DNA of 64,000 nucleotides from Maribellus sp. YY47 (GTDB lineage: Bacteria > Bacteroidota > Bacteroidia > Bacteroidales > Prolixibacteraceae), in NCBI RefSeq assembly GCF_023111095.1, contig NZ_JALGYW010000004.1, positions 217,045 to 281,044 of the forward strand, given 5' to 3'. Below are positions 3,500 through 62,465 of the stretch, in pieces. Positions within the stretch are counted from its first letter, which is position 1. Each line of letters begins with the position of its first letter. A program made the position numbers and the translations under genes. Below the pieces are notes generated by a model. The model did not search any database. It was not told the DNA's origin and saw only the letters and a list, made by a program, of their open reading frames with translations.

Positions 3500-4042
3500 T
3501 TGCATCTTTCTACAAACATATGGTTAAAGGACGAGGGGGGATTCAAAAGGTTTTTTGAAAAACAATACCCGTCGCTTTGCATATTCGCAGATCATTATCT
3601 GCAGGATAAGGACGCGAGTGCGGATATTGTACAGGAGGCGTTTGTTTATGTGTGGAGTAAACGGGAATACATTAGCGATGCCGCAGCTGCCAGATCATAC
3701 TTGTACAAATACATAAAAAATCATTGTTTGAATTTAATACGTGATACCAAACGCCGTCACGAAATATTATTTGAAAGACTTGAGTCTCCCGAATTTTTTC
3801 GCGATAATTTGATTGAGCGCGAGGCTTACGAAATAATTTATTCGGCGATTAAGGATTTAAGCTCTCAAAATCAGCAGGTAATAGAACTTTCGCTCGATGG
3901 TTTATCCAACAAGGAAATTGCTGAACAGCTTGATATCACTATAAATACTGTAAAAACAATCAAACAAAGATCTTTTAAAACTTTACGAAGAGTTTTGAGT
4001 CCCAGCTTATTTACATTCTTGTGCATGTTTAGCGAAAACTAA
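3500..4042 (+). CDS. ECF RNA polymerase sigma factor (PUL regulator)
   Basis: This 180-residue sigma-70 family ECF factor directs RNA polymerase to PUL promoters once released by the FecR anti-sigma encoded next. Region 2 spans about residues 15-90 (D-I-V-Q-E-A-F at 42-48, then a helix around 65-82). Region 4 spans about 112-165, with its helix-turn-helix around G-L-S-N-K-E-I-A-E-Q-L-D at 134-145. The only usable start is TTG at 3500: an in-frame TAG lies two codons upstream (3494-3496), and the next in-frame ATG is close to the C-terminus. The N-terminal motif N-I-W-L-K-D-E-G-G-F matches what I recall for PUL sigma factors, so the frame is not truncated. The rare start may keep its level low. 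FecR follows after 111 bases. Confidence 0.9.
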   Translation: MHLSTNIWLKDEGGFKRFFEKQYPSLCIFADHYLQDKDASADIVQEAFVYVWSKREYISDAAAARSYLYKYIKNHCLNLIRDTKRRHEILFERLESPEFFRDNLIEREAYEIIYSAIKDLSSQNQQVIELSLDGLSNKEIAEQLDITINTVKTIKQRSFKTLRRVLSPSLFTFLCMFSEN

Positions 4043-4093
4043 ACCCAAAAGCCAAAACAATAATTTTAAAAATTTATATGAAAAAAACGTTTT

Positions 4094-4128
4094 GGGTGTC
4101 ACCCCAAATCGATACTTACGTGCTTCAT
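4094..4128 (+). promoter_or_regulatory. Candidate ECF-dependent promoter of fecR-susCD
   Basis: The palindromic block GGGTGTCACCC (4094-4104) is followed about 14 bases later by CGTGCTT (4119-4125), and the FecR start codon lies at 4154. The arrangement resembles a -35/-10 pair of the ECF class (GC-rich -35 block, CGT-containing -10). It sits where an autoregulated promoter is expected, between the sigma gene and its anti-sigma gene. The GGGTG/CACCC arms could instead form a small hairpin in the transcript. The assignment is inferred from position and form only. Confidence 0.4.
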
Positions 4129-4153
4129 TAATGTTGGTATACAAAAACAGACA

Positions 4154-5344
4154 ATGCCCGACTTAGAATACGAAAAAATAGCGTTACTGATAGCTCGCGA
4201 AATAAGCGACGAAATTGATGAGGAAGAATTAAGGGAGCTTCGTGCTTGGCGCAATATGAATGCAGCCAATAACGCTTTATATATCAAACTCAAAAATTCC
4301 CAAAACTTTAAAAGCTGGCTGGCTGATCGGGAAGATGTAAATGTTGATGAAGGTTGGTCGGCAGTTTACTCGGAAATAAAGAAAAGATCGAGAACAATAA
4401 TTCTAAGAACCATTACACGCATTGCGGCCATTCTAGTTTTACCGCTTTTTGTAGGGGGTGTTGCCTATTTTTATTTCGACAATCAAATCGCAAAAAAGAA
4501 AATCAATCAACAACAGTTCGCCCAAATAAAACCCGGATCATCAAAAGCTACATTAACCTTGTGTGATGGTCGCGATGTTTTTCTGGATTCGATCAATATG
4601 TTATCACTCACTGAAATCGATGGTACAGAGATTGAAAAAATTCAGGGGGAGATCAGTTACCGAAAATCAGACGAACAGTTGATGAAACAACCGGTTTACA
4701 ACATTATCAATGTTCCGCTGGGAGGCGAATACCGTTTGACATTGTCGGATGGCACGAAGGTTTACCTTAATTCGATGACTTCATTGAAGTATCCGGTACA
4801 ATTTGGCTCTGATAAACGAGAGGTAGAGTTGGTGGGTGAAGCTTATTTCGAAGTCACAAAAAATGCGGGAAAGCCTTTTGTGGTGAATACCAAAGAAATG
4901 AAGGTGGAGGTTTTGGGGACATCGTTTAATGTAAATGCTTACGAAGACTCAAAGAATACAGTCACTACTCTGGTTGAAGGTAAAGTGAAACTATCGAATA
5001 CCCAGGACGATGAGAATGTCCAGATTTTGAATCCAAACGAACAGGCCGTAATGGATAATCTGTCGGGTAAAATTGCGCTTCGTAATGTCGATGTAAGCAA
5101 TTATATCAGCTGGAAAGATGGTCAAATGGTTTTCTACGATATGCCGCTGGAAGAAATTATGGTTTTGTTAACCCGCTGGTATTCAGCTAAGGTTTTTTAC
5201 ATGAATCCGGAAGTTAAAGACCTGAGATTTAGTGGCAGTTTGGATAAATACGACGAAATTGAAAAGTTCATAGACATAATAAAAGCAACAAATCAAGTTA
5301 ACGTAAGAGTTAACGACAACACCATTTTATTCGCGAAAAAGTAA
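4154..5344 (+). CDS. FecR-family anti-sigma factor
   Basis: This 396-residue inner-membrane anti-sigma factor holds the neighbouring ECF sigma in check and senses the STN domain of a ligand-loaded SusC in the periplasm. Residues 1-80 are a cytoplasmic helical sigma-binding region. A single transmembrane segment lies at about 82-108. The FecR domain is at about 175-290, with the typical G-G-E-Y-R-L-T-L-S-D-G-T and V-G-E-A-Y-F-E-V segments. A DUF4974-type C-terminal domain spans about 325-393 and ends in a beta strand with I-L-F-A. The start at ATG 4154 leaves a short leader after the candidate promoter at 4094. The susC gene follows after 121 bases that contain two hairpins. Order and domain content are those of a classic trans-envelope signalling PUL. 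Confidence 0.93.
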   Translation: MPDLEYEKIALLIAREISDEIDEEELRELRAWRNMNAANNALYIKLKNSQNFKSWLADREDVNVDEGWSAVYSEIKKRSRTIILRTITRIAAILVLPLFVGGVAYFYFDNQIAKKKINQQQFAQIKPGSSKATLTLCDGRDVFLDSINMLSLTEIDGTEIEKIQGEISYRKSDEQLMKQPVYNIINVPLGGEYRLTLSDGTKVYLNSMTSLKYPVQFGSDKREVELVGEAYFEVTKNAGKPFVVNTKEMKVEVLGTSFNVNAYEDSKNTVTTLVEGKVKLSNTQDDENVQILNPNEQAVMDNLSGKIALRNVDVSNYISWKDGQMVFYDMPLEEIMVLLTRWYSAKVFYMNPEVKDLRFSGSLDKYDEIEKFIDIIKATNQVNVRVNDNTILFAKK

Positions 5345-5465: not shown

Positions 5466-8400
5466 ATGAAAAAAAATGGTGTAATGAGCACTTTCCTTAA
5501 GTGGGAGGTGTTTCAATTTTTAATTATGATGAAAGTTGTTTGGGTGATTATTTTGGCTTCAGCATTTCAGGCTGCTGCAACGGAGTCTTACTCACAGGCT
5601 ACAAAGATTAGTCTAAGTATGAAACAGGCATCGCTTGAAGAGGTCATCTGGACAATGAAGAAAATGACCCAGTTCAATTTTTTCTATCAAAACGATGAGA
5701 TAGAAGAAGTTCAGGGGTTAAATGTAGAGTTTAGCGATCAAACTGTCGACGCTATTCTCGATGAGTGTTTGAAAAACACGGGCTTAACGTATGAGATCGT
5801 TCATAAGGCAGTTATAATCCATAAGGATACCAAGAAAATCGAACCACCGGGTCTGCTTCAGGAAAGCGAAGCAGATGCGCCGCAAAAGAAAACAGTTTCC
5901 GGTAAAGTAACTGACGCTAAAGGTTTGCCATTACCTGGTGTTACGGTTATCGTAAAAGGGACCACTGTTGGAACCGTTACCGATCCCGATGGAAATTTCA
6001 GCTTCGAAGTGCCAGTTGCAGCTGAAATTCTGCAGTTTTCGTTTGTTGGGATGAAAATGCAGGAAATTGTTTTAGCCGGACAATCAACATTCAATATCGT
6101 ACTGGAAGAAGAAACAGCCGACCTCGAAGAGGTGGTTGTGGTAGGTTATGGTAGCCAGAAGAAAGAATCGGTAACTGGTGCTATTTCTTCGGTTCGCACA
6201 GAAGAGTTGAAACAAAGCTCAGCTGCGAACCTTTCTGTGGCATTGGCCGGACAGCTTCCTGGTTTAACAGTTATGCAATCGTCAGGACAGCCCGGTAGCG
6301 ATAATGTAAACCTTTACCTTAGGGGGATGGGAACATTAAATGATGCTTCCCCACTTATTTTGATCGATGGTATTCCACGGGAAAGTATTGATAAATTGGA
6401 TCCTAATGAAGTTGAATCTATTTCAATTCTGAAAGATGCTTCGGCAACGGCAGTGTTTGGTGTCCGAGGTGCAAATGGTGTTATTATTATTACTACACGA
6501 AGAGGACAGGAAGGCAAATCGGAACTGAATATAACAGTAAATCAAAGTTATCAGAAGTTTCTTGTTCAGAACGATAGAATTCACTCGTGGGAATTTGCTG
6601 AATTACGTAATCAGGCATATCTCAATGGTAACCCCGGAGCAGCAGATGCAGATCTGCCTTTCACTCAATATATGATTGATAAATATAAAAGTGGTGAAGA
6701 TCTTGTATTCTATCCCGATCGTGATGTGTTTCATGATTATTTTCGGGATTGGGCTCCTCAAACCCGCGTTAACGCTAATTTTAACGGAGGTGGTAAGTTT
6801 TTTTCGTACTTCCTGAATGCCGGATATATCGGACAGGGAGGTAACTTCAAAACCGAACCAGAGAGCTTCCTGGGATACGATCCCAGCTACGCTATGGACC
6901 GTTATAATTTCAGGGGAAATATAGACTTTAACCTGGCCAGTAATCTAAAAGCATCATTGAATCTTGCAACCTACTTGCAGAAAATGAACACGCCACAAAC
7001 TGTGTCTTTATTCAGTGGTAGCGTGGAGGGTATGGTTCAGAACATGATTGCTTATACTTGGGGAACTCCTCCTACGGACCCGGGGCCAATTACAGTTGCC
7101 GGATATGGAGTACCCGAAAATGAAATTGTAGCTCAGTCGGGGCAAGACAGGAATACCTATGGTGAAATAAACCGCAGGGGATACAGATCGGAAGGTTCAA
7201 CCGTATTGAATTCTTCTTTGGCAATCGATTGGGGACTGGATTTTATTACAAAAGGATTGAGTGCAAAAGGAATGGTGGCCTTTGATAGTCACGCAAGCAC
7301 CGTACGTCAGGGATACCGTGGGGTAAATGTTTACGGTTTCAATGTTGCACGGAATGCTGACGAATCGAGCTACTATTCTCCGATTAGGGAAAATCAGGAC
7401 AAAGCGATGACTTTAACCAAAGGTATGAGTACCTATTATTATTCGAATTATCAGGCATCTCTGAATTACGCCAGAACATTTGGTTTGCATACCGTCACTG
7501 GTTTGGCGCTTTATCAGAGAGACAAGTGGGATAAGGCCAGTGCTGATTTACCATATAATGTAATTGGATATGTTGGTCGTGTAACTTACGATTATGACAA
7601 TCGATATTTAGCCGAATTTAACTTTGGTTATAACGGATCCGAGCAATTTGCACCGAAAAATCGCTTTGGTTCATTTCCTGCTTACTCGTTGGGATGGGTA
7701 GCCAGCAACGAAAGTTTCCTGAAAGACAACCCGGTCGTTACGCACCTAAAATTTAGAGGTTCGTACGGTATAACCGGTAATGATAAACTTGGCGACAGCC
7801 GATTCTTATATCAGAGTTCAATAACTATGTCAGGAGGGGTTATTCCTGGGTTAGGTTATGGACAAAGTGTTGTACAGGGCAGAATGGGTAATGAAGCTCT
7901 TCAATGGGAAAAAGCCGAAAAGAAAAATTTCGGAGTCGATTTAAAATTGTTCAACGATCTTTCGCTTACCGTTGACGTCTTCGACGAGCATCGTGATAAA
8001 ATCCTTATTAGCAGATCAACGATTCCGGTACTGCAGGGTGTACCGTTAGGTAATATTCCAAAAGTAAATATTGGTGTTGTGGATAATAAAGGATATGAGA
8101 TTGAACTTGCTTACCAAAAAACGGTGAACAAAGATCTTTCTTTTACCGTGAGAGGTAATTTCAACTACAACGAGAATACTGTAAAATATGCTGATGAAGT
8201 TCAATACGGAGAAGATTATGCTTACCGTTACAGGAGTACTGGTTTTAGTATCGGTCAACGTTTTGGATACCAGATTGATTACAGTAATGGTAATGGTTAC
8301 ATAAATACGTTGGAAGAGCTCGACAATCTTCCTACCTATGAAGTTGGTGGAACGCCAAGACTAGGTGATTTTATGTATGTTGATGTCAATAACGATGGAA

Positions 8401-8924
8401 AAATTAACGATCGGGATTTAGTTCCAATCGGTAATCCTACGGTGCCGCGTATATCATACGGTTTGTCCAGTGCGATTAATTACAAAAACTTCGACATGTC
8501 GTTTGTATTTTCCGGTATCGCTCAAAGTAGTATCACACATACGGGGTGGGGGGTAACTGAATTTGGATTGGTAGGTTTCTTTAGTGATTGGCATAAACAA
8601 GCATGGACAGCTGAACGATATGAAAATGGAGAAGAAATTTTATATCCTGCGCTTGGAATGTCGGCCGGTGTTAGCCAGAAATCGAATAACTTCTTTATCA
8701 TGGACCGCTCCTACTTGCGTTTGAAAAACATAGAGATTGGTTATAGTCTGCCCGAGAGTATTTTAAAACCTGTTGGCATATCCAGAGTCAGAGTTTTCGC
8801 TAATGGCAACAACCTGTTAACATGGGATAAATTACCGGTTAACACAATCGATCCTGAACAAAATGATGCACTGGTTTACCCATTAACCAAAATGGTAACA
8901 TTTGGTGTTAATATGACTTTCTAA
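5466..8924 (+). CDS. SusC-type TonB-dependent transporter with STN domain (SusC1)
   Basis: This 1152-residue outer-membrane TonB-dependent transporter imports oligosaccharides together with its SusD partner. A long signal peptide (about 1-38) is followed by an STN domain (about 46-119), the periplasmic signalling domain that contacts FecR. A carboxypeptidase-regulatory-like beta domain (about 142-212, starting V-S-G-K-V-T-D) comes next, then a TonB-box-like E-E-V-V-V-V-G-Y-G (about 220-229), the plug (to about 350) and a 22-strand barrel ending in V-N-M-T-F with the terminal phenylalanine. The STN domain makes this copy the probable inducer sensor of the locus. susD1 begins 19 bases later, indicating co-transcription. 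Length and domain order are normal for the signalling subtype of SusC. Confidence 0.95.
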   Translation: MKKNGVMSTFLKWEVFQFLIMMKVVWVIILASAFQAAATESYSQATKISLSMKQASLEEVIWTMKKMTQFNFFYQNDEIEEVQGLNVEFSDQTVDAILDECLKNTGLTYEIVHKAVIIHKDTKKIEPPGLLQESEADAPQKKTVSGKVTDAKGLPLPGVTVIVKGTTVGTVTDPDGNFSFEVPVAAEILQFSFVGMKMQEIVLAGQSTFNIVLEEETADLEEVVVVGYGSQKKESVTGAISSVRTEELKQSSAANLSVALAGQLPGLTVMQSSGQPGSDNVNLYLRGMGTLNDASPLILIDGIPRESIDKLDPNEVESISILKDASATAVFGVRGANGVIIITTRRGQEGKSELNITVNQSYQKFLVQNDRIHSWEFAELRNQAYLNGNPGAADADLPFTQYMIDKYKSGEDLVFYPDRDVFHDYFRDWAPQTRVNANFNGGGKFFSYFLNAGYIGQGGNFKTEPESFLGYDPSYAMDRYNFRGNIDFNLASNLKASLNLATYLQKMNTPQTVSLFSGSVEGMVQNMIAYTWGTPPTDPGPITVAGYGVPENEIVAQSGQDRNTYGEINRRGYRSEGSTVLNSSLAIDWGLDFITKGLSAKGMVAFDSHASTVRQGYRGVNVYGFNVARNADESSYYSPIRENQDKAMTLTKGMSTYYYSNYQASLNYARTFGLHTVTGLALYQRDKWDKASADLPYNVIGYVGRVTYDYDNRYLAEFNFGYNGSEQFAPKNRFGSFPAYSLGWVASNESFLKDNPVVTHLKFRGSYGITGNDKLGDSRFLYQSSITMSGGVIPGLGYGQSVVQGRMGNEALQWEKAEKKNFGVDLKLFNDLSLTVDVFDEHRDKILISRSTIPVLQGVPLGNIPKVNIGVVDNKGYEIELAYQKTVNKDLSFTVRGNFNYNENTVKYADEVQYGEDYAYRYRSTGFSIGQRFGYQIDYSNGNGYINTLEELDNLPTYEVGGTPRLGDFMYVDVNNDGKINDRDLVPIGNPTVPRISYGLSSAINYKNFDMSFVFSGIAQSSITHTGWGVTEFGLVGFFSDWHKQAWTAERYENGEEILYPALGMSAGVSQKSNNFFIMDRSYLRLKNIEIGYSLPESILKPVGISRVRVFANGNNLLTWDKLPVNTIDPEQNDALVYPLTKMVTFGVNMTF

Positions 8925-8943
8925 CCGCTTAATCTGAATAAAA

Positions 8944-10761
8944 ATGAAGAATTACATCTATATAATTTTGGTATTAATTGTTGCGTTTTTCAGCAGTTGT
9001 ACCGACGCTTTAGACATGGCTCCTGACGGAAATATGCAGATGGATGAGGTACTGTCTGATCCGGATAAAGTGGAAGCCTTGTTGAACCGCGTTTATAATA
9101 ACATTCCCCAAAAAGGGTATGCCTACTTCTTTTTCGATCCGGCAGTGGTAGCCTGTACTGATGACGGTTGGACGTCGGAAGATTCACAGGGGCAGTTGGT
9201 GGATCAGTACTACAAAGACAATTGTTCGGCCAGCTGGCATCCTATGCGTGATTTCCCCGATGGACACGGTGCCAATAACAATAGTTATTGGAGCCGTTAC
9301 TGGCAACAGATACGTTTATGTTCGCAGTTTATTGAAGTGATTGATGAAGCTGCTGTTAACGATGAAGCTGACCGAGGAAGATTTAAAGCAGAAGCTAAAG
9401 TGATGAGAAGCTTCTTTTACATGGAGCTGATTAAATGGTTCGGAAAAGTTCCTGTATTGAACGAAACAGTTCCGTTTGATGCTGATTTTTCAACTTTGAC
9501 ACGGCAATCGGTTTATGAAGTTGCTTCGCTTATTGTTGCTGATTGTAATGATGCTTTAGCAGAGTCAGAACTCCCCTGGAGGATAGACGGGAGTGGTGAT
9601 GGAGGTCGTGCCACAAAGGCTTTGGCCTGCGCTCTGAAATCTGAGGCGATGATGTTTGCCGCCAGCCCGCTGCACAACGAAGGAGAAAACCATTGGGAAG
9701 AGGCCTATCAGGTTACAAAGGATGCGGTATCAAAATTAAAAGCAAATGGCTATGAGCTATTTACAGTATGCACCCAACCCAATGTGTTTGGCACCGGCCC
9801 TGCAGCTGCCTATCGGCAGTTGGTAGATCAGGATGCAGATTTTGTACCAACACCTCGCGATAAAGAAACCATATACCGGGCCAGATCAGGTGGACTGTTT
9901 GTTTGGCATATCGGTTATATTGGAAGTAATATGCCAAATACTTACAAGTGCGGTACCTGTCCGACACAGGAATTAGTCGATGCCTTTGAAACGATCGACG
10001 GACAACCTGTATTGGATCTGGAGCGACCTTATTTGGATGAAAAACATCTGCAACCTAACTACAATGAGGCTAATACGTTATACGATCCTAATAATCCGTA
10101 TGCTAATCGTGACCCACGACTGGCTCAAACGGTGTTGTATAATGGAAGTGAAATCTTGTTTGATAACAAAAAGGTGACGATTGAAACCTACACAGGAGGG
10201 AAGCATGCTCCCAGTTGGGATGTTACCAACAGGGTTTCATCGCGAACCGGTTACTATCATTGTAAAATGGTTACACCCGGTGCCAGTGGAACCAACCAAA
10301 TCAACAACGCAAATTGGAAGTTTTATCGTTTAGGTCAGACCTTGCTTAATTTGGCAGAAACGGCTGCTGAAGCGGGTCACTTGGATGAAGCCAGAGCTGC
10401 TGTAAACGAAGTTAGAGCCCGTTCAGGAATGCCCGAGCTCTCTGCCGGTTTGTCAAAAGAAGAACTGATATTGCGAATTCGCAATGAACGTCGTGTTGAA
10501 TTGGCCTGGGAAGAAAATCGTTTCTTCGACCTTAGAAGGTGGCAAGATCCAAGTGGTGATTTAAGTGAAACCAGTAAATGGTTTACAGCCATGGTTATAA
10601 CTAAAAATTCAGATGGTAGCTTTACTTATTCACGCCGTAATATCTCGGAGAGTCCTCGCGGAGGATGGCAAAACAGAGATTTACTGCTTCCGCTTCCATT
10701 GTCTGAAGCAGCACTGCTTGAGTCGGTAACCGGTCAGCCATGGCAAAATCCGGGATGGTAA
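8944..10761 (+). CDS. SusD/RagB-family surface glycan-binding lipoprotein (SusD1)
   Basis: This 605-residue lipoprotein (signal peptide 1-18, lipobox F-S-S-C with Cys19) acts as the surface lid of SusC1. It has the SusD fold signature: N-terminal TPR-like helices with R-F-K-A-E-A-K-V-M-R-S-F-F-Y near residue 145, the D-P-R-L segment about residue 394, and the C-terminal R-N-E-R-R-V-E-L-A-W-E followed by R-F-F-D-L-R-R-W. It ends W-Q-N-P-G-W, as SusD2 does. It is encoded 19 bases after susC1, and the susC2 start codon lies 29 bases further on. The sequence does not reveal which sugar it binds. Confidence 0.94.
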   Translation: MKNYIYIILVLIVAFFSSCTDALDMAPDGNMQMDEVLSDPDKVEALLNRVYNNIPQKGYAYFFFDPAVVACTDDGWTSEDSQGQLVDQYYKDNCSASWHPMRDFPDGHGANNNSYWSRYWQQIRLCSQFIEVIDEAAVNDEADRGRFKAEAKVMRSFFYMELIKWFGKVPVLNETVPFDADFSTLTRQSVYEVASLIVADCNDALAESELPWRIDGSGDGGRATKALACALKSEAMMFAASPLHNEGENHWEEAYQVTKDAVSKLKANGYELFTVCTQPNVFGTGPAAAYRQLVDQDADFVPTPRDKETIYRARSGGLFVWHIGYIGSNMPNTYKCGTCPTQELVDAFETIDGQPVLDLERPYLDEKHLQPNYNEANTLYDPNNPYANRDPRLAQTVLYNGSEILFDNKKVTIETYTGGKHAPSWDVTNRVSSRTGYYHCKMVTPGASGTNQINNANWKFYRLGQTLLNLAETAAEAGHLDEARAAVNEVRARSGMPELSAGLSKEELILRIRNERRVELAWEENRFFDLRRWQDPSGDLSETSKWFTAMVITKNSDGSFTYSRRNISESPRGGWQNRDLLLPLPLSEAALLESVTGQPWQNPGW

Positions 10762-10790
10762 ACTAATACTTGAATTTAAAATTCATAATT

Positions 10791-13700
10791 ATGACAATAG
10801 ATAAATTTATCAAATATATAGCGCTCAACATTGGATATTTGTTGATGTGCGTCAATCTATATGCTCAAGGAGAATCTCTCCCCCAAAACCTTGTGGTAAA
10901 TGAGTACGGAGAGCCGGTTGCCGGTGCTGTAGTTGTTTCAGAATTTGGCAAGAACCAATATGTAACATCTAACGATGGTAGTTGTCAGATTACAGTTGAC
11001 GATGGAAGCTCATATGTAGTTGTAAGAGCAATTGGTTTTCTGGATTATAAGATTCCTGTGGATGAAATATTAAGCACCCAGAAAATAACGCTGAACTTTG
11101 ATAATCATAACATGGGCGGTGTTGTGAATATGGGATATAACTCTTATTCCCGAGAATCGGTAACCGGTGCAGTATCTTCGGTAACGGGTGCAGAGTTAGA
11201 CAAAACCCCCAGTAATATATTATCCGAAACGTTATCAGGTAGGTTACCCGGTTTAACCAACGTGCAAAACCTTTCTGAATTAACTTTTTTCGGATACGGA
11301 AACTATACTAAAACAATTCGGGGTATTTCTTCTCGAAATGGATCTTCGCCTCTAATTATTATAGATGGTGTAGTTTGCCCCACTCAGTATTACGAATTCA
11401 TTTCACCAAAAGAAATCGAAAGTGTGAGCGTTCTTAAAGATGCTTCTGCAACAGCAATTTATGGAATGCAGGGAGCCAACGGAGTGATTGTTATTACCAC
11501 CAAACGTGGGTTTAATGGCGAAAAAAAGGTAGAAGCTTATGTTGATCAGTCTTTCCAGCAAATGATTAAGCGGCCGATGTTTATAAATTCGGCTCGCTAC
11601 GCGCAACTTCGGAATGAGGCAGGCGAACGGGATGGACTTGGCACGTATTCTCAGTTTAGTCAGGACGAAATCGACCAGTTTGGTGCAGGTGATAATATTG
11701 CATATCCGAATAACGACTGGTACGATATGTTTATCAAAGACTATGTGTTGAGACAGCGCGCAGGAGTAAATGTTTCCGGAGGTTCTAAAAAGTTTAAATA
11801 TTTCTCTGAATTGAATTTTGTGAACCAGGGCGAGCCTCTGATTGTAGAAGATGTTGCTGACCGTAAATATGATCCAACTCCCCATGTTAATATTTTCAAT
11901 TTTCGCTCCAATATGGATGTGAATTTTAATCAGTATGTATCGGGTTTTATGCGCCTTGCAGGTAGTGTGAAACGCGAAAAGCAAACAGGAGCCGGGATGA
12001 ACTGGGATATCTACAGTAACTTACTCAGTTTGCCTCCGACAATGTATGGGCCATTGTCTCCCGAGATTGAGGATGACCCGGACCAGAGCAACCAGGTTGT
12101 TACGATTGTAGGAGTTGATAATCCAGCTTATGGCGAAATTAATCGGTCGGGTTATAAAGAGATTATCGAAACCAATGTAATTGCACAAGCCGGATTAAGT
12201 GCTGATTTAAGTTTCATTACCAAAGGCTTGTCCGTTAGTGGAGCTATGGCTTATCAGGCCTATCTTCGGAACAATACCTCTACAACTCAGGAGTATTATA
12301 AAGTGATTAGAGAAAATGATTATTCGGTGTTGGATAATTTTAGGAAATATGGTGATGACGAGAATACTCCGTTGGCTTATTCCAAAGGTTCAGTTTACTT
12401 CTATTATCTCGATTTGTTTGGTACGGTTGAGTACAAACGTCAGTTTGGTGATCATTCAATCGACGCTGCTGCTCACACCTATTATTTATACCAGGAAAAA
12501 GAAGCAACAGGAAGCGGAAGTGATGTATTACCTTACAAACGACAGAATGCTGGGGTGAGTGTGCTCTACGGGTTTAAAGACCGTTACTTTGTAAAAGGAG
12601 ACCTTGGTTATTCTGGTTCAGAACAATTTCATCCGGATAACCGGTTTATAGCTACACCGTCCATTTCAGCAGCCTGGATTGCCTCTAAAGAAAATTTCTT
12701 TGATGTTGATTTCATCAGTCTATTAAAACTAAGGGCTTCATATGGTTTAACAGCAAACGATCAAATAGGTGGTTCTCGTTTCCTTTACCTGGATAACATT
12801 CGTTCTTCCGGCGAAGAGAAAGAGAGGGGGAATCCTGATTTGTCTCCCGAAAAAATTAAAAAGCTGAACCTTGGTCTTGATCTTGGTCTATTAAATATGT
12901 TTACCATCGGTGTTGATTATTTTAAAGATAAAGTCGACAACATGTTGGTGAATAGTTCTTCAACAATTCCCGTTTACCAGGGTATTCCTCTTGGGTACTA
13001 TCCTAAACTGAACAATGGTAAAATGGAAAATAAGGGCTACGAAATTTCGGTTGGTTTCAATAAGCAATTCAGTAAAGAGCTGAGAGCTTATGCTACTTTT
13101 AATTTCATGCAGGCGAAAAACAAAGTGATTAGCATCAACGAATCTCCTTATTCTGATGATTATGCTTATCCGTACCGTACCGAAGGATATCGCTATGGGC
13201 AACAATGGGGGTATAAAATTGACTACAGTAACGGAAACGGAATGTTTAATTCAGAACAGGAATTAGCAAGCTCAAACCTCGTTTATTCTATGGGTATACC
13301 GCGTGTGGGTGATTTTATCTATCAGGATTTGAATAATGATAATACAATCGATGAAAAAGATTTAGCGCCCATGGGATATGCCAAGATACCTGAGCAAGAA
13401 TATACTTTCAACGGTGGCGTAAACTGGAAGAATTGGGAAATGTCGTTTCTTTTCCATGGTGTAAGAAATGCTTCTCAGTTTATAAGCGGTACAGGGGTTT
13501 ATGAAAACGAGAGCCTGGGAATATTCAATGATATTCATTTAAATGCATGGACACCTGAACGTTATGCTGCCGGAGAGGAAATTTCATATCCTGCTCTGTC
13601 ATTGTTACCTTCAACCAACCACGTTAACAACGATTTCTTTTTGATGGATCGTTCGTATCTGCGTTTAAGAAATCTTGAGATTGCTCATACCTTACCGGTA

Positions 13701-13868
13701 AACCTTTCCAAGAAAGCGTCGAAGGAAACCATACGTATTGCCGTTAACATTCAAAACTTGTTTACGATTGATAATGTACAATCAAAATACATCGATCCTG
13801 AAATTGGGCAAATGAATACATTCCAGCCTTATAGGGTATATAACCTTGGCGTAAATATTAACTTTTAA
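10791..13868 (+). CDS. SusC-type TonB-dependent transporter without STN (SusC2)
   Basis: This is the second SusC-like transporter, 1025 residues from ATG 10791. An in-frame TTG at 10770 would add seven residues before the signal peptide, and the ATG is preferred. The mature protein starts after a signal peptide ending in L-Y-A-Q. A short carboxypeptidase-regulatory-like domain (about 30-95) comes first, then a degenerate TonB-box region G-G-V-V-N-M-G-Y in place of the usual E-E-V-V-V-V-G-Y, the plug, and a barrel ending in I-N-F. There is no STN domain, so it should transport without signalling to FecR. It resembles SusC1 along the barrel (for example the shared D-R-S-Y-L-R-L-R/K-N near the C-terminus), suggesting an old duplication of the susCD pair. 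susD2 follows after 11 bases. Confidence 0.93.
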   Translation: MTIDKFIKYIALNIGYLLMCVNLYAQGESLPQNLVVNEYGEPVAGAVVVSEFGKNQYVTSNDGSCQITVDDGSSYVVVRAIGFLDYKIPVDEILSTQKITLNFDNHNMGGVVNMGYNSYSRESVTGAVSSVTGAELDKTPSNILSETLSGRLPGLTNVQNLSELTFFGYGNYTKTIRGISSRNGSSPLIIIDGVVCPTQYYEFISPKEIESVSVLKDASATAIYGMQGANGVIVITTKRGFNGEKKVEAYVDQSFQQMIKRPMFINSARYAQLRNEAGERDGLGTYSQFSQDEIDQFGAGDNIAYPNNDWYDMFIKDYVLRQRAGVNVSGGSKKFKYFSELNFVNQGEPLIVEDVADRKYDPTPHVNIFNFRSNMDVNFNQYVSGFMRLAGSVKREKQTGAGMNWDIYSNLLSLPPTMYGPLSPEIEDDPDQSNQVVTIVGVDNPAYGEINRSGYKEIIETNVIAQAGLSADLSFITKGLSVSGAMAYQAYLRNNTSTTQEYYKVIRENDYSVLDNFRKYGDDENTPLAYSKGSVYFYYLDLFGTVEYKRQFGDHSIDAAAHTYYLYQEKEATGSGSDVLPYKRQNAGVSVLYGFKDRYFVKGDLGYSGSEQFHPDNRFIATPSISAAWIASKENFFDVDFISLLKLRASYGLTANDQIGGSRFLYLDNIRSSGEEKERGNPDLSPEKIKKLNLGLDLGLLNMFTIGVDYFKDKVDNMLVNSSSTIPVYQGIPLGYYPKLNNGKMENKGYEISVGFNKQFSKELRAYATFNFMQAKNKVISINESPYSDDYAYPYRTEGYRYGQQWGYKIDYSNGNGMFNSEQELASSNLVYSMGIPRVGDFIYQDLNNDNTIDEKDLAPMGYAKIPEQEYTFNGGVNWKNWEMSFLFHGVRNASQFISGTGVYENESLGIFNDIHLNAWTPERYAAGEEISYPALSLLPSTNHVNNDFFLMDRSYLRLRNLEIAHTLPVNLSKKASKETIRIAVNIQNLFTIDNVQSKYIDPEIGQMNTFQPYRVYNLGVNINF

Positions 13869-13879
13869 ATGGCTTTAGC

Positions 13880-16153
13880 ATGAAAAAATATATTTCAAAA
13901 CTATTTACAGTGTTTGTCTCAGTGTTAGGCTTAGTTTCCTGTGCCGACCTGGATATTCCATCTGATGGACGAATGACGCTAAATGACATTTTCATGGATT
14001 ATTATTCCACCAGAAATTACTTTAACAGATGTAGTGACTATATGCCGCAGGTTGGTTTTTCTTACGAAAATACCCCGTTGGCTTCGTTTTGCGATGAAGC
14101 ACACGATGCCAGCGACGGCGTAAGCGGTGCTGTAAACGATTGGTATAACAACCGGACATCGTCATCAAACAATCCATTAGCATCGGGAGGCGATCCCTGG
14201 AGTCGTTATTTTGAGGGTATTCGGAAATGCAACACTTTTCTGGAGAGTATAAACGATCCAACTGTTGCTACTGCAAATATTGATGAAGAGGAGAAAAATG
14301 GCTGGATTGGTGAAGTTTATACCTTACGGGCATTTTATTATCTTCAATTAATAAAACGATATGGTGGTGTACCTATCATTGATGCACCTTACGAAATTAC
14401 CTACGATTTTTCGCAAGATAGCCGTGCTACATTTGAAGCATGTGTAGATTTTATTTTGGCTGATTGCGACAGAGCTCTTGAAATTCCGGAGAGCAGTGTC
14501 TCGACCATCGGTTTTAGATGGGATATTAGTGATAATGAACGAGGTCATGTCACACGTGCGTTTGCATATGCCGTAAAATCGCAGGCAGCATTATACGCAG
14601 CCAGTCCGCTTTGGTATGAGCAGGGGAGCAAATACACCTGGGATAAAGTCACTGAAATTACAAAAGAAGCACTTGACGAATGTTTGGCTCATGGATTTGA
14701 ACTTTTCGATATTACTCCAAACGCAGATATTGCTCAAAATGCTTATGCTTATTATTTTATTAATCGTTCCGATCCAAGCCGCTCGGTGGATAAGGAAACG
14801 ATATTTGAAACTACATCTTCCCGCACAAATGTATGGAAATACGCAGGAACGCCCATTACAGAGGGAGCTTTAAAGGCAGGCGCTGGTCCTTCTCAGGAAC
14901 TGGTTGACGCCTATGGAATGCAGGCAACAGGTGAAATGCCGGTTTTGGGATATTTCGATGCCAGCCATTTGCAGCCAATCATAAACGCCAGTGCCGGGTA
15001 CGATCCTGCTAATCCATACGAAGGAAGGGACCCACGCTTTTATGCTTCTGTTTACTACAATAACTCGCCACGTTCACTAACTACCGGGAATATCGATAAG
15101 GATTTGTTTCCCTTAAGTTTTACTTCAACGATCAACAATATAACTGCAACTAAAAATGGTGACGAAGTAACTTTGGCAACAACAGGTAGTGATCCATGGA
15201 TATTCACGACAACTTTAACCCGTCCGTTAACTGCAGGAGACAGTCGTGTTGTTTCGTTCGAATATAAAAGTAACAAATCAATTACTGATTCTGAGTTTTT
15301 CTTTTGTGTGGCTGGTGGCCCGCAGGGCGGAGTTGAATCAGGCCAGAATATTCACATTCCACAGGCTTCTGAATGGACTCGGTTTGAATACGATTTAACG
15401 ACCGCTATCAATACGTGGGGTTTTGGCGTTAATTCAAGTGGAGGTGCAAGTCCTGAAAATCATTTTCTACGTTTTGACGTAACAGGCGGAGCTGGATACG
15501 AAATTACAATCCGTAATTTCAGAATCGAATGTTTTACACTACCGCCGGCACCTACGCCAGTCGAAACTTTTGTCGGAGGGAACTGTGAGATATCGGATCG
15601 GGTAAATGAAATTACAAATACCAGAACCGGCTATTACATGCGTAAGTTTAATAACTACAAATCGGGAGTAAATGTCGACCAGGATGGTTTGATGAAGATC
15701 TTCAGACTTGGTGAACTGTACCTGAATTTTGCAGAGGCAGCTTATCAATCAGTAGGTCCCGATGCAGCTGTGCCGTCAACAGTGGGCGGATCTGCTATGT
15801 CTGCTCGCCAGGCTGTGAATACAATACGCGAACGTGCGGAAATGCCGCCTCTGCCGGCAGGTTTGTCAGAAAGCGAGTTTGAGGTGCGGTATCGCAATGA
15901 ACGTCAGGTTGAAATGGCATTCGAAGAACACCGGTTCTTTGATGTTCGCAGGTGGAAAATTCTGAATGAAACAGATGGTTTCGTTACCGGAATGAAAATT
16001 ACCCAGGAAGGCGATTCTTATACATATACACGTATTAAGCTGGAAGATAGAGGTACTAATGCTGACAAGTACTTAAGGTACCCAATCGATCAGTCTGAAG
16101 TGTCAAAAATGGAGAGCTACACCGGTACCAGCTGGCAAAATCCAGGTTGGTAA
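13880..16153 (+). CDS. SusD-family lipoprotein with an inserted DUF4972-like domain (SusD2)
   Basis: This 757-residue SusD/RagB lipoprotein (lipobox V-S-C, Cys21) is about 150 residues longer than SusD1. The SusD parts are intact: R-A-F-Y-Y-L-Q-L-I-K-R-Y near 155, D-P-R-F-Y just before residue 390, then E-T-F-V-G-G-N about 561, T-R-T-G-Y-Y, and the C-terminal R-N-E-R-Q-V-E-M-A-F-E with R-F-F-D-V-R-R-W. Between D-P-R-F-Y and E-T-F-V-G-G lies an extra module, about residues 395-558 (bases roughly 15065-15550), rich in beta strands. The module resembles the N-terminal domain of the DUF5722 lipoprotein at 23925, with shared motifs T-T-G-S/T-D-P, S/T-F-E-Y and H-F/Y-L-R-F/L-D. It looks like a carbohydrate-binding-type beta-sandwich grafted onto the surface-exposed side of SusD. 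A strong terminator follows. Confidence 0.93.
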   Translation: MKKYISKLFTVFVSVLGLVSCADLDIPSDGRMTLNDIFMDYYSTRNYFNRCSDYMPQVGFSYENTPLASFCDEAHDASDGVSGAVNDWYNNRTSSSNNPLASGGDPWSRYFEGIRKCNTFLESINDPTVATANIDEEEKNGWIGEVYTLRAFYYLQLIKRYGGVPIIDAPYEITYDFSQDSRATFEACVDFILADCDRALEIPESSVSTIGFRWDISDNERGHVTRAFAYAVKSQAALYAASPLWYEQGSKYTWDKVTEITKEALDECLAHGFELFDITPNADIAQNAYAYYFINRSDPSRSVDKETIFETTSSRTNVWKYAGTPITEGALKAGAGPSQELVDAYGMQATGEMPVLGYFDASHLQPIINASAGYDPANPYEGRDPRFYASVYYNNSPRSLTTGNIDKDLFPLSFTSTINNITATKNGDEVTLATTGSDPWIFTTTLTRPLTAGDSRVVSFEYKSNKSITDSEFFFCVAGGPQGGVESGQNIHIPQASEWTRFEYDLTTAINTWGFGVNSSGGASPENHFLRFDVTGGAGYEITIRNFRIECFTLPPAPTPVETFVGGNCEISDRVNEITNTRTGYYMRKFNNYKSGVNVDQDGLMKIFRLGELYLNFAEAAYQSVGPDAAVPSTVGGSAMSARQAVNTIRERAEMPPLPAGLSESEFEVRYRNERQVEMAFEEHRFFDVRRWKILNETDGFVTGMKITQEGDSYTYTRIKLEDRGTNADKYLRYPIDQSEVSKMESYTGTSWQNPGW

Positions 16154-16190
16154 GTTCATATCTTGTTTAGATGTAGTGTAATATTGAAAA

Positions 16191-16225
16191 TGAGAAAGAG
16201 CAGCCAATTGGCTGCCCTTTTCTCA
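16191..16225 (+). terminator. Rho-independent terminator after susD2
   Basis: The 16-base perfect palindrome GCAGCCAATTGGCTGC (16200-16215) sits inside flanking complementary A-rich and T-rich arms (TGAGAAAGA at 16191-16199 against CCTTTTCTCA at 16216-16225). It separates the susCD block from the enzyme genes. Read-through or a separate promoter in 16226-16561 must serve the latter. Confidence 0.75.
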
Positions 16226-16561
16226 TGATCAAAACACGATATTTTCCAGTTAAACCTAATGCTTTGTAAACGAACCTCTTTCTTTTTGAAAGAGCGTTCG
16301 ACGCAAAGTTTCTACTACTGCCACTGTTGTCATTCGTATAATTTTAAACGACTTGAATATTAAAAAAGTAATATCATTGAAGGTATTCTTGTTTGGTCTT
16401 TCAAGATGAGCAGATTCGTCTATCGGTGCATTTTGCAGTTATAATTTTTCCTGAATTTGCCGATTCGCAGAACTCGTTAATCCTGAAAAACATCATGTAT
16501 AAACAGGCTGCACCTATAAAATGGCACATTAATTTAAAAATGATTGGCTAACAGAAAACTT
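16226..16561 (+). other. Intergenic region upstream of the enzyme block
   Basis: This 336-base AT-rich stretch has no open frame of note, no tRNA and no strong repeat. It lies between a strong terminator and the first of more than twenty co-directional enzyme genes, so it probably carries their promoter. I did not find a clean TTTG / TAnnTTTG pair with normal spacing, nor a repeat of the GGGTGTCACCC block found at 4094. Confidence 0.4.
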
Positions 16562-18484
16562 ATGAATAAGCGATACAAAAAGGATTCAAGTAAGAGGGAC
16601 CGATATAGATTAAGGTGCTTGATGGTGCTTTTTTGCTGTATGCTTATTTGTTCCGCAAAAGCCGGCGACAAAAACAAAGTTCAGGACAAATTTTCGGTAC
16701 TGCCTTCGGGGGCCGTACAATTGGATGGATATTTAGACGGTTATATTCAGAAATCAATAAAAAACTGGAACAAAGGAGTGGTTCCTTATGCCTCTTTTGT
16801 TGATTTCTTTAGAAACGGCAGGCCTCAGTTTGCTTTAGGCGAAATGTGGGGTAAAGCGGTCCGCTCCGGCTGTATGTTTTACCGCTACACGCAAGATCCG
16901 GAATTAAAACGTATAATGGAGGCAACGGTAAAAGACTTGCTCTCTGCGCAACGTGCAGACGGAAGTATCAGTTGTATTGAACCTGAAAAACAACCCGATG
17001 CCAGCGATTTGTGGGAGCGAAAATATGTAATGCTCGGACTGGAAGAATATTACGAATGGGTAAATCCCGATCCGGCAGTTTTAAACGCTTTAATAAAACA
17101 TGCCGATAATATTATATACTTAATCGGACATGCTCCAAAAACAGAAATTACCGATGTGGGCTGGAGTGCAACAAACATTGGTTACGAAGCATGTCATGTT
17201 GAGTCAAGCACTTTGTTCGAGCCTTTTATGCGTTTGTACAAGTGGACAAATGAGCAACGTTATTTAGATTTTGCGAGCTATATTTTCGAAGCAGGAGGTA
17301 CGAAAAACTACAATGTTTTTGAGATGGCGCTCAATAATGTAGAACCCTATAAAATGGCCGGGCATTATCCAAAAGCCTACGAAACAACGTCATTATTTGA
17401 AGGCTTGGTTGAATACTACCGGGTGACTCAAAATCCCGAAGTGCTGCAAATGATTCAAAACTATTTTAATAATGTCAGGACCAAAGAGATAACGATAATT
17501 GGTAACGGAGGGAGCGACCAGCCCTATCATCCGATGGTTGCCGGAGAAGCCTGGGGAAATACCGCGGTAGAGCAAACCAATCCTGACATTACCCGTATGA
17601 TGGAAACTTGCGTTGGCGTTACCTGGATGAAGTTCTGCAGCCAGGTTTCACGGCTTACAGGAACGTCATCGGCCATGGATGAAATCGAGAAATATGTTTA
17701 CAACGGATTAATTGGTGCGATGAAACCGGAAGGCGATGGCTTCAGTTATGTAAATCTGCTGAATGGAACCAAAGTTAATGGCGAAGGCTGGGGCTGGATG
17801 TTCGATAGTCTTCATGTAACTTGTTGCAACCTGAATGGACCGATGGGGCTTGCCTACTTACCCTACGTGGCGGTTATGCGCACCGATGAAGGTCCGGTTG
17901 TGAATCTCTACAATACTGCAACAGCTGATTTTGTTACTGCCAAAGGAACAACGGTACAATTAAAAATCGAAACGGACTTTCCTCGTTCAGGGCTGGTGAA
18001 AATTAAAATTTTATCGGATAAACCGGCATCTTTCCCGGTGATGCTTCGTATTCCCGGTTGGAGTGAAAAAACGAGTTTGAGTGTCAATAATAAGCCGGTG
18101 GAAGTGACTCCCGGTACTTATGCTGAAATCCGGAGGAAATGGAATCCGGGCGATGAAATGGAACTGCAGCTCGATATGCGTTGTCGTATTGTTGATGCAC
18201 CAAAAGGGAGTAACCGTGCCGGCGATCATTTTAACGCATTGATTCGCGGTCCGATCGTTTTAGCCCGAGATGAGAACATCGATGAAAATTACAATCAGCC
18301 GGTAAATATTGTTTCCGAGGATGGTTATGTGAATATTATGCCCGGGAAAAGTTCAGATGGTGCCGACTCTGGGATGGAGTTCCGGGTGCCTGTTGAAGGG
18401 GGCTTTATTACGGTTGTTGACTATGCATCGGTTAACAACTGGAACGGCAAACACATTTGTACTTGGCTGCCAACAGCTGAGTAG
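16562..18484 (+). CDS. GH127 family beta-L-arabinofuranosidase-like enzyme
   Basis: This 640-residue secreted enzyme (ATG 16562; an in-frame TTG at 16544 is less likely) has a basic n-region and a hydrophobic core ending S-A-K-A. It matches the GH127/DUF1680 (alpha/alpha)6-barrel family. In the characterised member HypBA1 the catalytic set is Glu322, the zinc ligands Glu338, Cys340 and Cys418, and the nucleophile Cys417. Equivalent residues are visible here: Glu329 in G-E-A-W-G, Glu348 and Cys350 in M-E-T-C, and Cys421-Cys422 in V-T-C-C-N-L-N. All key residues are therefore present, and a retaining exo-acting hydrolase on beta-L-arabinofuranose or a related furanose/pyranose is expected. The gene ends in four consecutive in-frame stops (TAG TAG TAG TAA, 18482-18493). 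Confidence 0.88.
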   Translation: MNKRYKKDSSKRDRYRLRCLMVLFCCMLICSAKAGDKNKVQDKFSVLPSGAVQLDGYLDGYIQKSIKNWNKGVVPYASFVDFFRNGRPQFALGEMWGKAVRSGCMFYRYTQDPELKRIMEATVKDLLSAQRADGSISCIEPEKQPDASDLWERKYVMLGLEEYYEWVNPDPAVLNALIKHADNIIYLIGHAPKTEITDVGWSATNIGYEACHVESSTLFEPFMRLYKWTNEQRYLDFASYIFEAGGTKNYNVFEMALNNVEPYKMAGHYPKAYETTSLFEGLVEYYRVTQNPEVLQMIQNYFNNVRTKEITIIGNGGSDQPYHPMVAGEAWGNTAVEQTNPDITRMMETCVGVTWMKFCSQVSRLTGTSSAMDEIEKYVYNGLIGAMKPEGDGFSYVNLLNGTKVNGEGWGWMFDSLHVTCCNLNGPMGLAYLPYVAVMRTDEGPVVNLYNTATADFVTAKGTTVQLKIETDFPRSGLVKIKILSDKPASFPVMLRIPGWSEKTSLSVNNKPVEVTPGTYAEIRRKWNPGDEMELQLDMRCRIVDAPKGSNRAGDHFNALIRGPIVLARDENIDENYNQPVNIVSEDGYVNIMPGKSSDGADSGMEFRVPVEGGFITVVDYASVNNWNGKHICTWLPTAE

Positions 18485-23924: not shown

Positions 23925-26087
23925 ATGAAGACATTAGATTTTTACAGATTATTACCGATGACGTTGTGGCTGTTACTTTTCAGCGCTGCCGCTTTCAGTT
24001 CGTGTGAAAAAGACTCGGTGGAAAAACCTGAAACGGAGCCTATCGTTGTAAAAAGCTATTTTAGCTTCAATTCATCATCTGCGCACGATCTGGAGGTGAC
24101 CAACGATGGCGCCCACCAATATAAAATTCAGACAACAGGAACCGATCCGTACGTTACTTTAAATCCGCTGACAAGTAGTATTGCAGAGGATAAACTTGTG
24201 TTTACGTTTGAATACCAGAGTACCGCTGCGCTCAACAATCTGCAATTGTTTCTTGCACCGCCAACAACCGAAGAGCGCTCGGTGAAATCGGAGGAACTGA
24301 CAGAATCAGGCAGTTGGAAAACCTTTTCCATCGATCTGGGTGATTATATCGATGAATTTAGCTGGGGAAATACAGGACATTACTTGCGACTTGATTTTGG
24401 CAACAGCTCGGGAGTTACCATTCTGGTCCGTAATATGGAAATGAGGGTGCGCACCGAAAGTGAGCAGGCGTTGGCCGATGCACGTGCCGAAGAACGCGAA
24501 AGGTTGCGCATTCTGGAAGAAAAACTAAATAATTATCTGGCAGCTACATTCGATGCATCTGTTACTGATGTGTCGGTTTCGGCTTCAAAAATTACGGTTA
24601 CGGGAAATTGTCCCGATCCAGCCAATCTTTTGTTGTGTGAAGTCACTCCTTATCAGGATTTGGTAGAACTTACCAATTTTGAAAATGGCGTAGCACCCGG
24701 AAGTCAGAACTTTTCCATCGAGCTGGATCGTTACATTGAAAAAGACGGTTTCAACTACGATCGCAGCCTGTCGAAGTGGGTGTTGGTAAAAAGCGGTTCC
24801 ATCACCGATGAAATTGTTTCGTTTGCCCGTTACGCCAGCGAGATAACTCCACAGGAAACAATGCCGGCCGGTCAGTTAAGGAGTAAAAAGGGACTTGGAG
24901 GTTATGCCGTTAGCCGTGGGTTTCAGCAAGATCTCGACGACCTGAAAATTACGAGTGTAACCGTAAATGTAGCGCTTACTTCTTATATGTACCTTCAACC
25001 ACGGGCTAATACGTTTGAACATGTGTATGGCGGGAAATCCTATTATTTCAACAAGGCAAGAATAGAAGAACTCGATAGGACCATGCAGAAAGCCTACGAG
25101 AAAGATATTATGGTGGCTGCAATCATTTTGATTCAAAAGGCTTCTGAATGTGCCGATCCTGAAATTGGTGAATTGTTGCAGCATCCGGGGTTTAGTGGCG
25201 AAGGCTTTTTTACAATGCCCAACATGACCAACGCGGCCAGTTTAAATTGCTATACCGCAGCACTCGATTTTCTGGCCAGTCGCTACAACCGCCCCGACAA
25301 CGCCTACGGAAGAATTCATAACTGGATTATGCACAACGAAGTAGATGCCGGATTAACCTGGACCAACATGGGCGATGTTCCCATGATCAATTTTATGGAT
25401 ACCTACATTAAATCCATGCGGCTGTGCCACAATATTGTGCGGAAATACGACGAGACAGGTCAGGTGCTCGGATCGTTTACCCATTCGTGGAAAGATGCGG
25501 TGGAATCGTATGCAACCGTGGATATGCTGGAGGTACTCAAAAAAGAATGTGCTGCCGAAGGAGATTTTCAGTGGGGACTGGCTTGTCATCCGTATCCGCA
25601 GGATTTAAATGAGCCCAAAACATGGAACGATGCAAAAGCGACGTTTAGCATGAGTTCATCGCTGGTTACCTTTAAAAACCTGGAAGTGCTGGATGCCTGG
25701 ATTAAAAAGGCAGAGAATAAATTTCAGGGAACCATAAAACGCACATTATGGCTATCGGAAAACGGAACCAATTCAAGAACCTATGGTGAACAGGATTTAA
25801 TGGAACAGGCTGCGGGCCTGGCGTATGCCTGGAAAAAATTAGAGTTGCTTGATGGCATTGATGCCATTCAGTGGCACAACTGGATTGACAACCGCGGCGA
25901 ATTTGGCTTACGAATTGGCCTGCGCCGCTATCCCGACGATGAGGAAGATCCGGGTGGCGCAAAACCGGTGTGGTATGTTTACCAGGCTGCAGGCACCGAT
26001 CAGGAAGATACGGTTTTTGATCCCTATAAATCGCTGATCGGAATTGGCGACTGGAGTGAAATTATGCACACCGTGTTGGCTCCGTAG
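23925..26087 (+). CDS. DUF4972 + DUF5722 lipoprotein, putative clan GH-A-like hydrolase
   Basis: This 720-residue lipoprotein has a lipobox at F-S-S-C (about Cys27). Residues about 40-175 form a beta-sandwich-like module of the DUF4972 type, resembling the domain inserted in SusD2. A short helical linker follows, then a catalytic-looking domain (about 310-715) that fits DUF5722. That domain carries N-W-I-M-H-N-E-V-D-A-G with Glu472 and L-W-L-S-E-N-G with Glu612. Two glutamates placed at the ends of strands 4 and 7 are what a retaining clan GH-A enzyme uses for acid/base and nucleophile. H-P-Y-P and I-Q-W-H-N-W-I-D-N-R segments support a sugar-binding barrel. The activity of the family is, as far as I know, not established. 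Confidence 0.82.
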   Translation: MKTLDFYRLLPMTLWLLLFSAAAFSSCEKDSVEKPETEPIVVKSYFSFNSSSAHDLEVTNDGAHQYKIQTTGTDPYVTLNPLTSSIAEDKLVFTFEYQSTAALNNLQLFLAPPTTEERSVKSEELTESGSWKTFSIDLGDYIDEFSWGNTGHYLRLDFGNSSGVTILVRNMEMRVRTESEQALADARAEERERLRILEEKLNNYLAATFDASVTDVSVSASKITVTGNCPDPANLLLCEVTPYQDLVELTNFENGVAPGSQNFSIELDRYIEKDGFNYDRSLSKWVLVKSGSITDEIVSFARYASEITPQETMPAGQLRSKKGLGGYAVSRGFQQDLDDLKITSVTVNVALTSYMYLQPRANTFEHVYGGKSYYFNKARIEELDRTMQKAYEKDIMVAAIILIQKASECADPEIGELLQHPGFSGEGFFTMPNMTNAASLNCYTAALDFLASRYNRPDNAYGRIHNWIMHNEVDAGLTWTNMGDVPMINFMDTYIKSMRLCHNIVRKYDETGQVLGSFTHSWKDAVESYATVDMLEVLKKECAAEGDFQWGLACHPYPQDLNEPKTWNDAKATFSMSSSLVTFKNLEVLDAWIKKAENKFQGTIKRTLWLSENGTNSRTYGEQDLMEQAAGLAYAWKKLELLDGIDAIQWHNWIDNRGEFGLRIGLRRYPDDEEDPGGAKPVWYVYQAAGTDQEDTVFDPYKSLIGIGDWSEIMHTVLAP

Positions 26088-62416: not shown

Positions 62417-62465
62417 TAGAAAAAGTTTTTTGTCAATAGTCATTTAATTATAAACCAACTAAAAA

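Follow-up and report, generated by a model that had tools for sequence, protein, structure and literature searches.

Results

The 64,000-nucleotide stretch of DNA analysed here, referred to as the window, comes from Maribellus sp. YY47 (contig NZ_JALGYW010000004.1, positions 217,045 to 281,044 of the forward strand) and carries two successive SusC-SusD gene pairs followed by many genes for carbohydrate-active enzymes. The second SusD-type protein, SusD2, contains an insert in its C-terminal half, and this insert is related to the N-terminal domain of a DUF5722 protein encoded farther downstream (Table 1). SusD2 belongs to the SusD/RagB family, as Pfam domains cover both halves of the protein (PF14322, SusD-like_3, E=3.4e-15, in one stretch; PF07980, SusD_RagB, E=8.1e-39, in two stretches). 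The gene starts directly after the end of SusC2; 14 of 16 related loci likewise have a SusC2 homologue immediately 5' of SusD2, the other two being cut by the start of the contig. Judged from the sequence, the N-terminus is signal-like and ends in a cysteine, and SusD2 is likely the lid of an outer-membrane sugar importer. In its Pfam halves, its upstream SusC and its signal-like start SusD2 resembles solved SusD/RagB lids (e.g. 3qnk, 5cjz and 7bll), but none of the 29 solved chains matched by a profile of its orthologues without the insert, which measure 423-641 amino acids (aa), is as long. Other long SusD proteins, of 703 and 713 aa, are encoded in the same genome. A search with NF033071 for a starch SusD onto which SusD2 could be mapped gave no match above the cut-off in its own genome or in control genomes.

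Table 1. Positions in the window of SusD2, its insert, the related DUF5722 protein and neighbouring features
Feature	Positions	Strand	Basis
SusD2, SusD/RagB-family lipoprotein-like protein, 757 aa, host of the module	13880..16153	+	Open reading frame; PF14322, PF07980
Insert, residues 401-560 (160 residues), between 'YYNNSPRSL' and 'VETFVGGN'	15080..15559	+	Alignment of 123 SusD2 proteins
CBM-like module itself, residues 407-552, spanning roughly the first to the last predicted strand	15098..15535	+	AlphaFold2; CBM matches
Exit linker FTLPPAPTP, rich in proline, residues 552-560; related SusD2 proteins have a similar one	15533..15559	+	Alignments
DUF5722 protein, 720 aa, lipoprotein-like start, N-terminal module and predicted glycosidase-like domain	23925..26087	+	PF18989 E=3e-118; structure model
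N-terminal module of DUF5722 protein, residues 45-175, homologous to SusD2 insert	24057..24449	+	BLASTP, phmmer, model
SusC2, predicted TonB-dependent partner of SusD2	10770..13868	+	TonB plug PF07715 E=5.3e-15
SusC1 of the tandem SusCD pair	5466..8924	+	PF07715, PF13715
SusD1, 605 aa, without module, internal control	8944..10761	+	PF07980; no phmmer match from insert; Smith-Waterman score 30
Gap after SusD2, 390 nt, no SGBP-like gene	16154..16543	.	Next open reading frame is the GH127 gene
GH127 beta-L-arabinofuranosidase-like gene, first gene 3' of SusD2	16544..18484	+	PF07944, PF20736

The module inserted in SusD2

Searches with the insert (residues 404-557) and with the body of SusD2 (residues 60-390) returned 91 and 2275 proteins, respectively, and the best 120 of the latter were used. 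Fourteen of these 120 lack the module, although they are up to 73% identical to SusD2 over the body region; it is present in 109 of the 123 SusD proteins pooled from both searches, a ratio biased by the fact that one search targeted the module. All 123 proteins were kept in the alignment of the insert. In all 14 module-less orthologues the site is occupied by 5-7 residues, against 160 in SusD2, and the flanks are retained ('RDPRFYAS-Y-N' before and 'V-T(F/Y)V-GN' after). An earlier note, made from the DNA sequence alone, had placed the insert at 15065-15550, which agrees with the aligned borders within 15 nt, and the motifs it gave as flanks, DPRFY and ETFVGG, were found at residues 384 and 562. 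We regard this anatomy as secure: a domain has been cleanly inserted into SusD2, with a linker rich in proline at its exit. The C-terminal half of SusD is described as rich in loops in PMC2954216.

AlphaFold2 predicts the insert to be a beta-sandwich (mean pLDDT 91.4, pTM 0.87). The model resembles structures in the PDB of carbohydrate-binding module (CBM) families 29, 30, 6, 11, 35 and 4, that is, the predicted fold is the CBM beta-sandwich; the insert differs from these families in its low identity, about 9-17% in the alignments. The top Foldseek match is SGBP-B (7kwc), a surface glycan-binding protein (SGBP), and non-CBM structures are also among the matches. The insert itself has no match in Pfam. 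Among 27 module sequences one matched CBM_4_9 (E=0.0092), and a profile of the module matched only one solved PDB chain, an unrelated esterase, at chance level (E=0.041). With the empty site in the orthologues, the model bears out the earlier description of the insert as a discrete module with a predicted CBM-type fold.

Relationship to the DUF5722 protein

The similarity that the earlier note had seen between the insert and the N-terminal domain of the DUF5722 protein reflects homology. By BLASTP the two share 36 of 140 residues (26%; E=1e-13), and a phmmer search of the 32 open reading frames (ORFs) of the window with the insert returned only SusD2 itself and the DUF5722 protein. The Smith-Waterman score of the pair was 130; none of 2000 shuffles scored above 66, and the highest-scoring of 194 tiles cut from the other ORFs reached 43. 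These two proteins hold the only copies found in a search of the whole genome. The CBM29 chain 1gwl is among the fold matches of the model of the entire DUF5722 protein. The proposed DUF4972-type identity of both domains was dropped, as neither matched any Pfam family at E<=10 (HMMER filters drop most matches above about 0.1) or any NCBIfam family at E<=1.

The kinship is not close. Identity between the insert and aligned DUF5722 modules is 26-30%, and in a module tree the SusD2 inserts and the DUF5722 modules lie on two separate branches (support 96/95). Twelve positions carry the same residue in at least 85% of the rows of each group, SusD/SGBP (135 rows) and DUF5722 (59 rows), namely T435, D438, P439, L446, F460, Y462, F474, W499, G516, R531, D533 and R545. 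Other residues distinguish the SusD/SGBP from the DUF5722 group, at about 473-484 (C476 and G480 versus R483 and S484) and at 515 (F515 versus W515). From sequence, either set may or may not include ligand contacts. Not one of the 91 proteins retrieved with the insert is listed with the DUF5722 Pfam domain, and conversely all 40 matches to the DUF5722 N-terminal domain carry PF18989. Five DUF5722 proteins (P0094-P0097 and P0099) have four module copies each, one N-terminal and three C-terminal, and two at locus L047 (10524-14723 and 16299-19499) have three tandem N-terminal copies; such multiplicity suggests avidity. The word DUF5722 occurs in no paper of the collection searched.

Distribution of the module

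Outside SusD2 the closest relatives of the insert, at 50-63% identity, are modules at the C-termini of SGBP-like proteins that also contain DUF1735 and/or F5/8-type domains (P0080, P0081, P0085, P0086 and P0087). These proteins, which are probably exposed at the cell surface, are called SGBP-like from gene position and domains, their binding of glycan being presumed, and we know of no binding test of them. At four loci (L037, L038, L039 and L041) an SGBP-like module protein lies directly after or near a module-bearing SusD2. One of these, a protein of 325 aa (L037:9482-10456), has a module with SusD-type entry and exit linkers (PVQKDIYPL...EVFTLP), and its sequence reads as if the module had been copied out of a SusD2. 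A different protein at L050 contains several module copies. A module also forms the C-terminus of a protein that by eye is transglutaminase-like (L049:7987-9507); the 9.5 kb covered at this locus contain no SusC or SusD match.

The module is rare. With the source genome counted in both surveys and at most 10 candidates scored per genome, matches at E<=0.001 occurred in 3 of 395 genomes across the phylum and 6 of 393 of the order; some were weak, and those at L005, L018 and L051 look like a more general domain. A module-directed scan of one genome from each of 84,980 species yielded 16 loci, each with a module-bearing SusD2, and SusD2 relatives at E<=1e-140 were present in 19 of 123 genomes of a family to which genome G347 led. 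The sequences outline a mobile CBM-like family, matched by no Pfam model, in loci with many rhamnosidase genes.

Genes adjacent to SusD2

In the window no stand-alone SGBP lies beside SusD2; the module forms part of SusD2 itself, and the GH127 gene comes next. Pfam lists no DUF1735, F5/8 or SusE-type family for any of the 32 window ORFs considered. We compared the neighbourhoods of SusD2 genes with and without the module, an SGBP next door being recognised by BLAST to four reference proteins, by the module, or by similarity to such a protein. After removal of six duplicate loci, 20 module-bearing loci offered 1 kb or more of sequence 3' of SusD2 (L034 was excluded). In 5 of these an SGBP-like gene was next to SusD2, and none was recognised in the other 15, which include the window. 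Ten module-less loci offered 500 bp or more (L044 and L098 were excluded); 8 had such a gene and 2 had none, namely L066, with only 627 bp downstream, and L064 (genome G850). The SusD2 of L064 is 73% identical to P0156 and 63% to the body of the SusD2 in the window, and its genome has no module match at E<=0.001. The association between a module in SusD2 and the lack of an SGBP next door gave p=0.0069 (Fisher test), kinship ignored; on supported branches only one independent pair was available (sign test, p=1).

Six SGBP-like genes beside a module-less SusD2 are complete, and three of them (L069, L093 and L094) contain the module; in the others (L071, L078 and L099) no module was detected. At L067 and L070 the contig stops within the gene. 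The remainder of the L067 gene lies on another contig from that genome, which overlaps the first by 24 nt at the end, and the gene thus extended ends in a module. The SGBP-like proteins of L067, L069, L078, L093, L094 and L095 are interrelated over their shared parts, with 37-58% identity in the pairs found. DUF4959 is combined with both F5/8 and the module in L094, with F5/8 alone in L078, and with the module alone in L069 and L093; therefore the module comes and goes as a unit. A straight swap between the module and the F5/8 domain was considered and dropped, as either may be present or absent and L094 has both.

Phylogeny

We built a tree of 61 chosen SusD2 bodies from which the insert had been removed, rooted on the long-branched L099. 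In it module-less rows branch deepest, and the 37 rows with a module all fall under a fork of 44 rows (SH-aLRT 97). Seven module changes are needed, most simply one gain and six losses. An earlier tree, which left out proteins shorter than 595 aa and was rooted on the single distant G690, also needed seven changes, but placed a module-bearing row deepest. We give more weight to the 61-row tree because it includes 11 further module-less rows.

For the modules, a match was kept if it reached E=1e-6, spanned about 105 aa or more and lay outside the short loci L001-L025. Thinning of near-identical rows took the set from 208 to 131, from which 62 were chosen for a tree, excluding the divergent module L039:2761. 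When this tree is rooted on DUF5722, the DUF5722 modules form one side, and on the other four SGBP modules of module-less loci branch first (95/93), followed by L048/L049 and then by a group in which nine SGBP modules are interspersed among the 27 SusD inserts (100/97). A single clade of SusD inserts is not rejected (AU test, p=0.16). Taken as sequence histories, the trees favour relocation of the module from an SGBP into SusD2 with repeated losses thereafter, and copying back from SusD2 to an SGBP is possible. The direction rests on the trees and not on the count of neighbouring SGBP genes.

Discussion

We think it probable, with appreciable room for doubt, that SusD2 is a lid into which a predicted CBM-type module was spliced, most likely from a neighbouring SGBP, so that the likely lid could itself catch polysaccharide. 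According to this proposal, the SGBP copy of the module family would have moved into one point of the C-terminal half of SusD2, where the module would bind glycan and capture the polymer in cis, taking the place of a stand-alone SGBP. The DUF5722 enzyme, with its cousin module, might hold the chain at the same place or next to it, lid and enzyme thus working on one tethered polymer. The substrate of the locus is likely a rhamnose- and arabinofuranose-containing polysaccharide, to judge from the rhamnosidase, GH127 and sulfatase genes. The broadest form of the idea, that a SusD lid absorbed an SGBP module and made the SGBP dispensable, giving a lid-plus-grapple accompanied by a cousin-module glycosidase from a family that moves among lid, SGBP and enzyme, we advance tentatively, its chances seeming close to even. 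Both the proposal and its broadest form are weakened somewhat by the finding that no more than three of the six complete SGBP-like genes beside a module-less SusD2 carry the module.

Known systems offer a partial parallel. SGBP lipoproteins of the SusE/F and SGBP-B type (e.g. 7kwc/7kwb) stand alone, whereas in the window a module homologous to the C-terminal modules of SGBP-like proteins is inside SusD2 and no SGBP-like gene follows. The levan and dextran utilisomes of Bacteroides thetaiotaomicron, as presented in PMC7618045, are stable SusCD-lipoprotein complexes with the same division of labour among a lid, a mobile glycan-grabbing SGBP and a surface enzyme; the glycan-binding domain of the SGBP is likened there to a mobile grapple, which docks its glycan at the enzyme next to the lid, and the levan enzyme carries a secondary tethering site. 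In the utilisomes, however, SGBP and SusD are separate proteins, while here the grabbing module would be a covalent part of the lid. Binding by SusD is not always required and an SGBP may deliver the substrate, according to PMC7782687 and PMC9599597; the latter also treats a nonbinding F5_SusD-like protein. We found no SusD with an inserted CBM-like module in the titles and abstract openings retrieved, two of the broader listings being covered for 15 of 37 and 12 of 16 papers. A lineage with an SGBP module in the lid and close module-less relatives at a clean empty site provides a natural comparison that bears on the way in which the capture and hand-over of glycan are divided between SGBPs and SusD lids, and, if the proposal is true, the hand-over from lid to importer becomes testable.

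Several other explanations were weighed. The earlier note had named an ordinary SusD loop extension as the finding that would overturn it, and the length of this segment does vary among solved SusD structures, being longer in 7bll than in 3qnk. The shuffle control (130 versus at most 66), which refutes chance similarity to the DUF5722 module, the empty site, the confident independent fold and the occurrence of the module in other proteins leave this explanation next to no credibility. Direct arrival of the module from the DUF5722 gene, rather than from an SGBP, would suit the presence of both genes, with a common module, in one locus, but the SusD inserts group with SGBP modules, apart from all 20 DUF5722 rows, and share 50-63% identity with the former against 26-30% with the latter. 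We consider such an origin very improbable.

The function of the insert leaves more room. It might serve as a docking or spacer domain that helps to assemble the complex and whose partner is not glycan but a protein, be it SusC1D1, the DUF5722 enzyme or some other surface lipoprotein. The fold is not limited to sugar binders, the tandem SusCD order is retained together with the module, and according to PMC7618045 the extra lipoproteins of utilisomes assemble on the SusCD core. CBMs are usually gained and lost as units, occur in multiple copies and are attached to varied proteins. The module family behaves in this way, being found also on a predicted enzyme and at the C-termini of SGBP-like proteins, in three to four copies in some proteins, and coming and going like F5/8 among homologous SGBP-like proteins; a docking role is thus unlikely. 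The idea that SusD2 and the DUF5722 protein bind one and the same feature of the glycan, which would link its capture to its cleavage, is compatible with the lid-borne SGBP module and partly contained in it. In its favour are the homology, the twelve shared conserved positions, among them D438, F460, Y462, W499, R531, D533 and R545, and the presence of both proteins in one locus in the window and at L026, L029 and L031. The separate branches, the group-specific residues at 473-484 and 515 and the low identity, at which the shared positions may be structural, argue for caution, and we see a common ligand as possible but doubtful.

Other features of the locus

The tandem SusC1-SusD1-SusC2-SusD2 occupies 5466-16153, and its order is kept in related loci wherever the contig is long enough. 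Just before SusC1 (3500-5344) are an ECF-type sigma factor gene (3500-4042) and a FecR-type anti-sigma gene (4154-5344), likely the regulator pair of the locus. Six alpha-L-rhamnosidase-like genes start at 29237, 33520, 35724, 46991, 50828 and 55768, and besides these and GH127 the locus encodes GH20, a sulfatase and an esterase-like protein. Nine ORFs of 323-941 aa (starts 18545, 20931, 21908, 27180, 31698, 39048, 41852, 45199 and 54378) have no Pfam match above the curated cut-off; several have homologues with 55-82% identity in related loci, and they probably encode further enzymes of this pathway that belong to no recognised class. The locus closes (61022-63878) with genes for a 3-keto-disaccharide hydrolase and a Gfo/Idh/MocA oxidoreductase, and a similar pair is found at L046 near DUF5722, GH106, GH78 and sulfatase genes.
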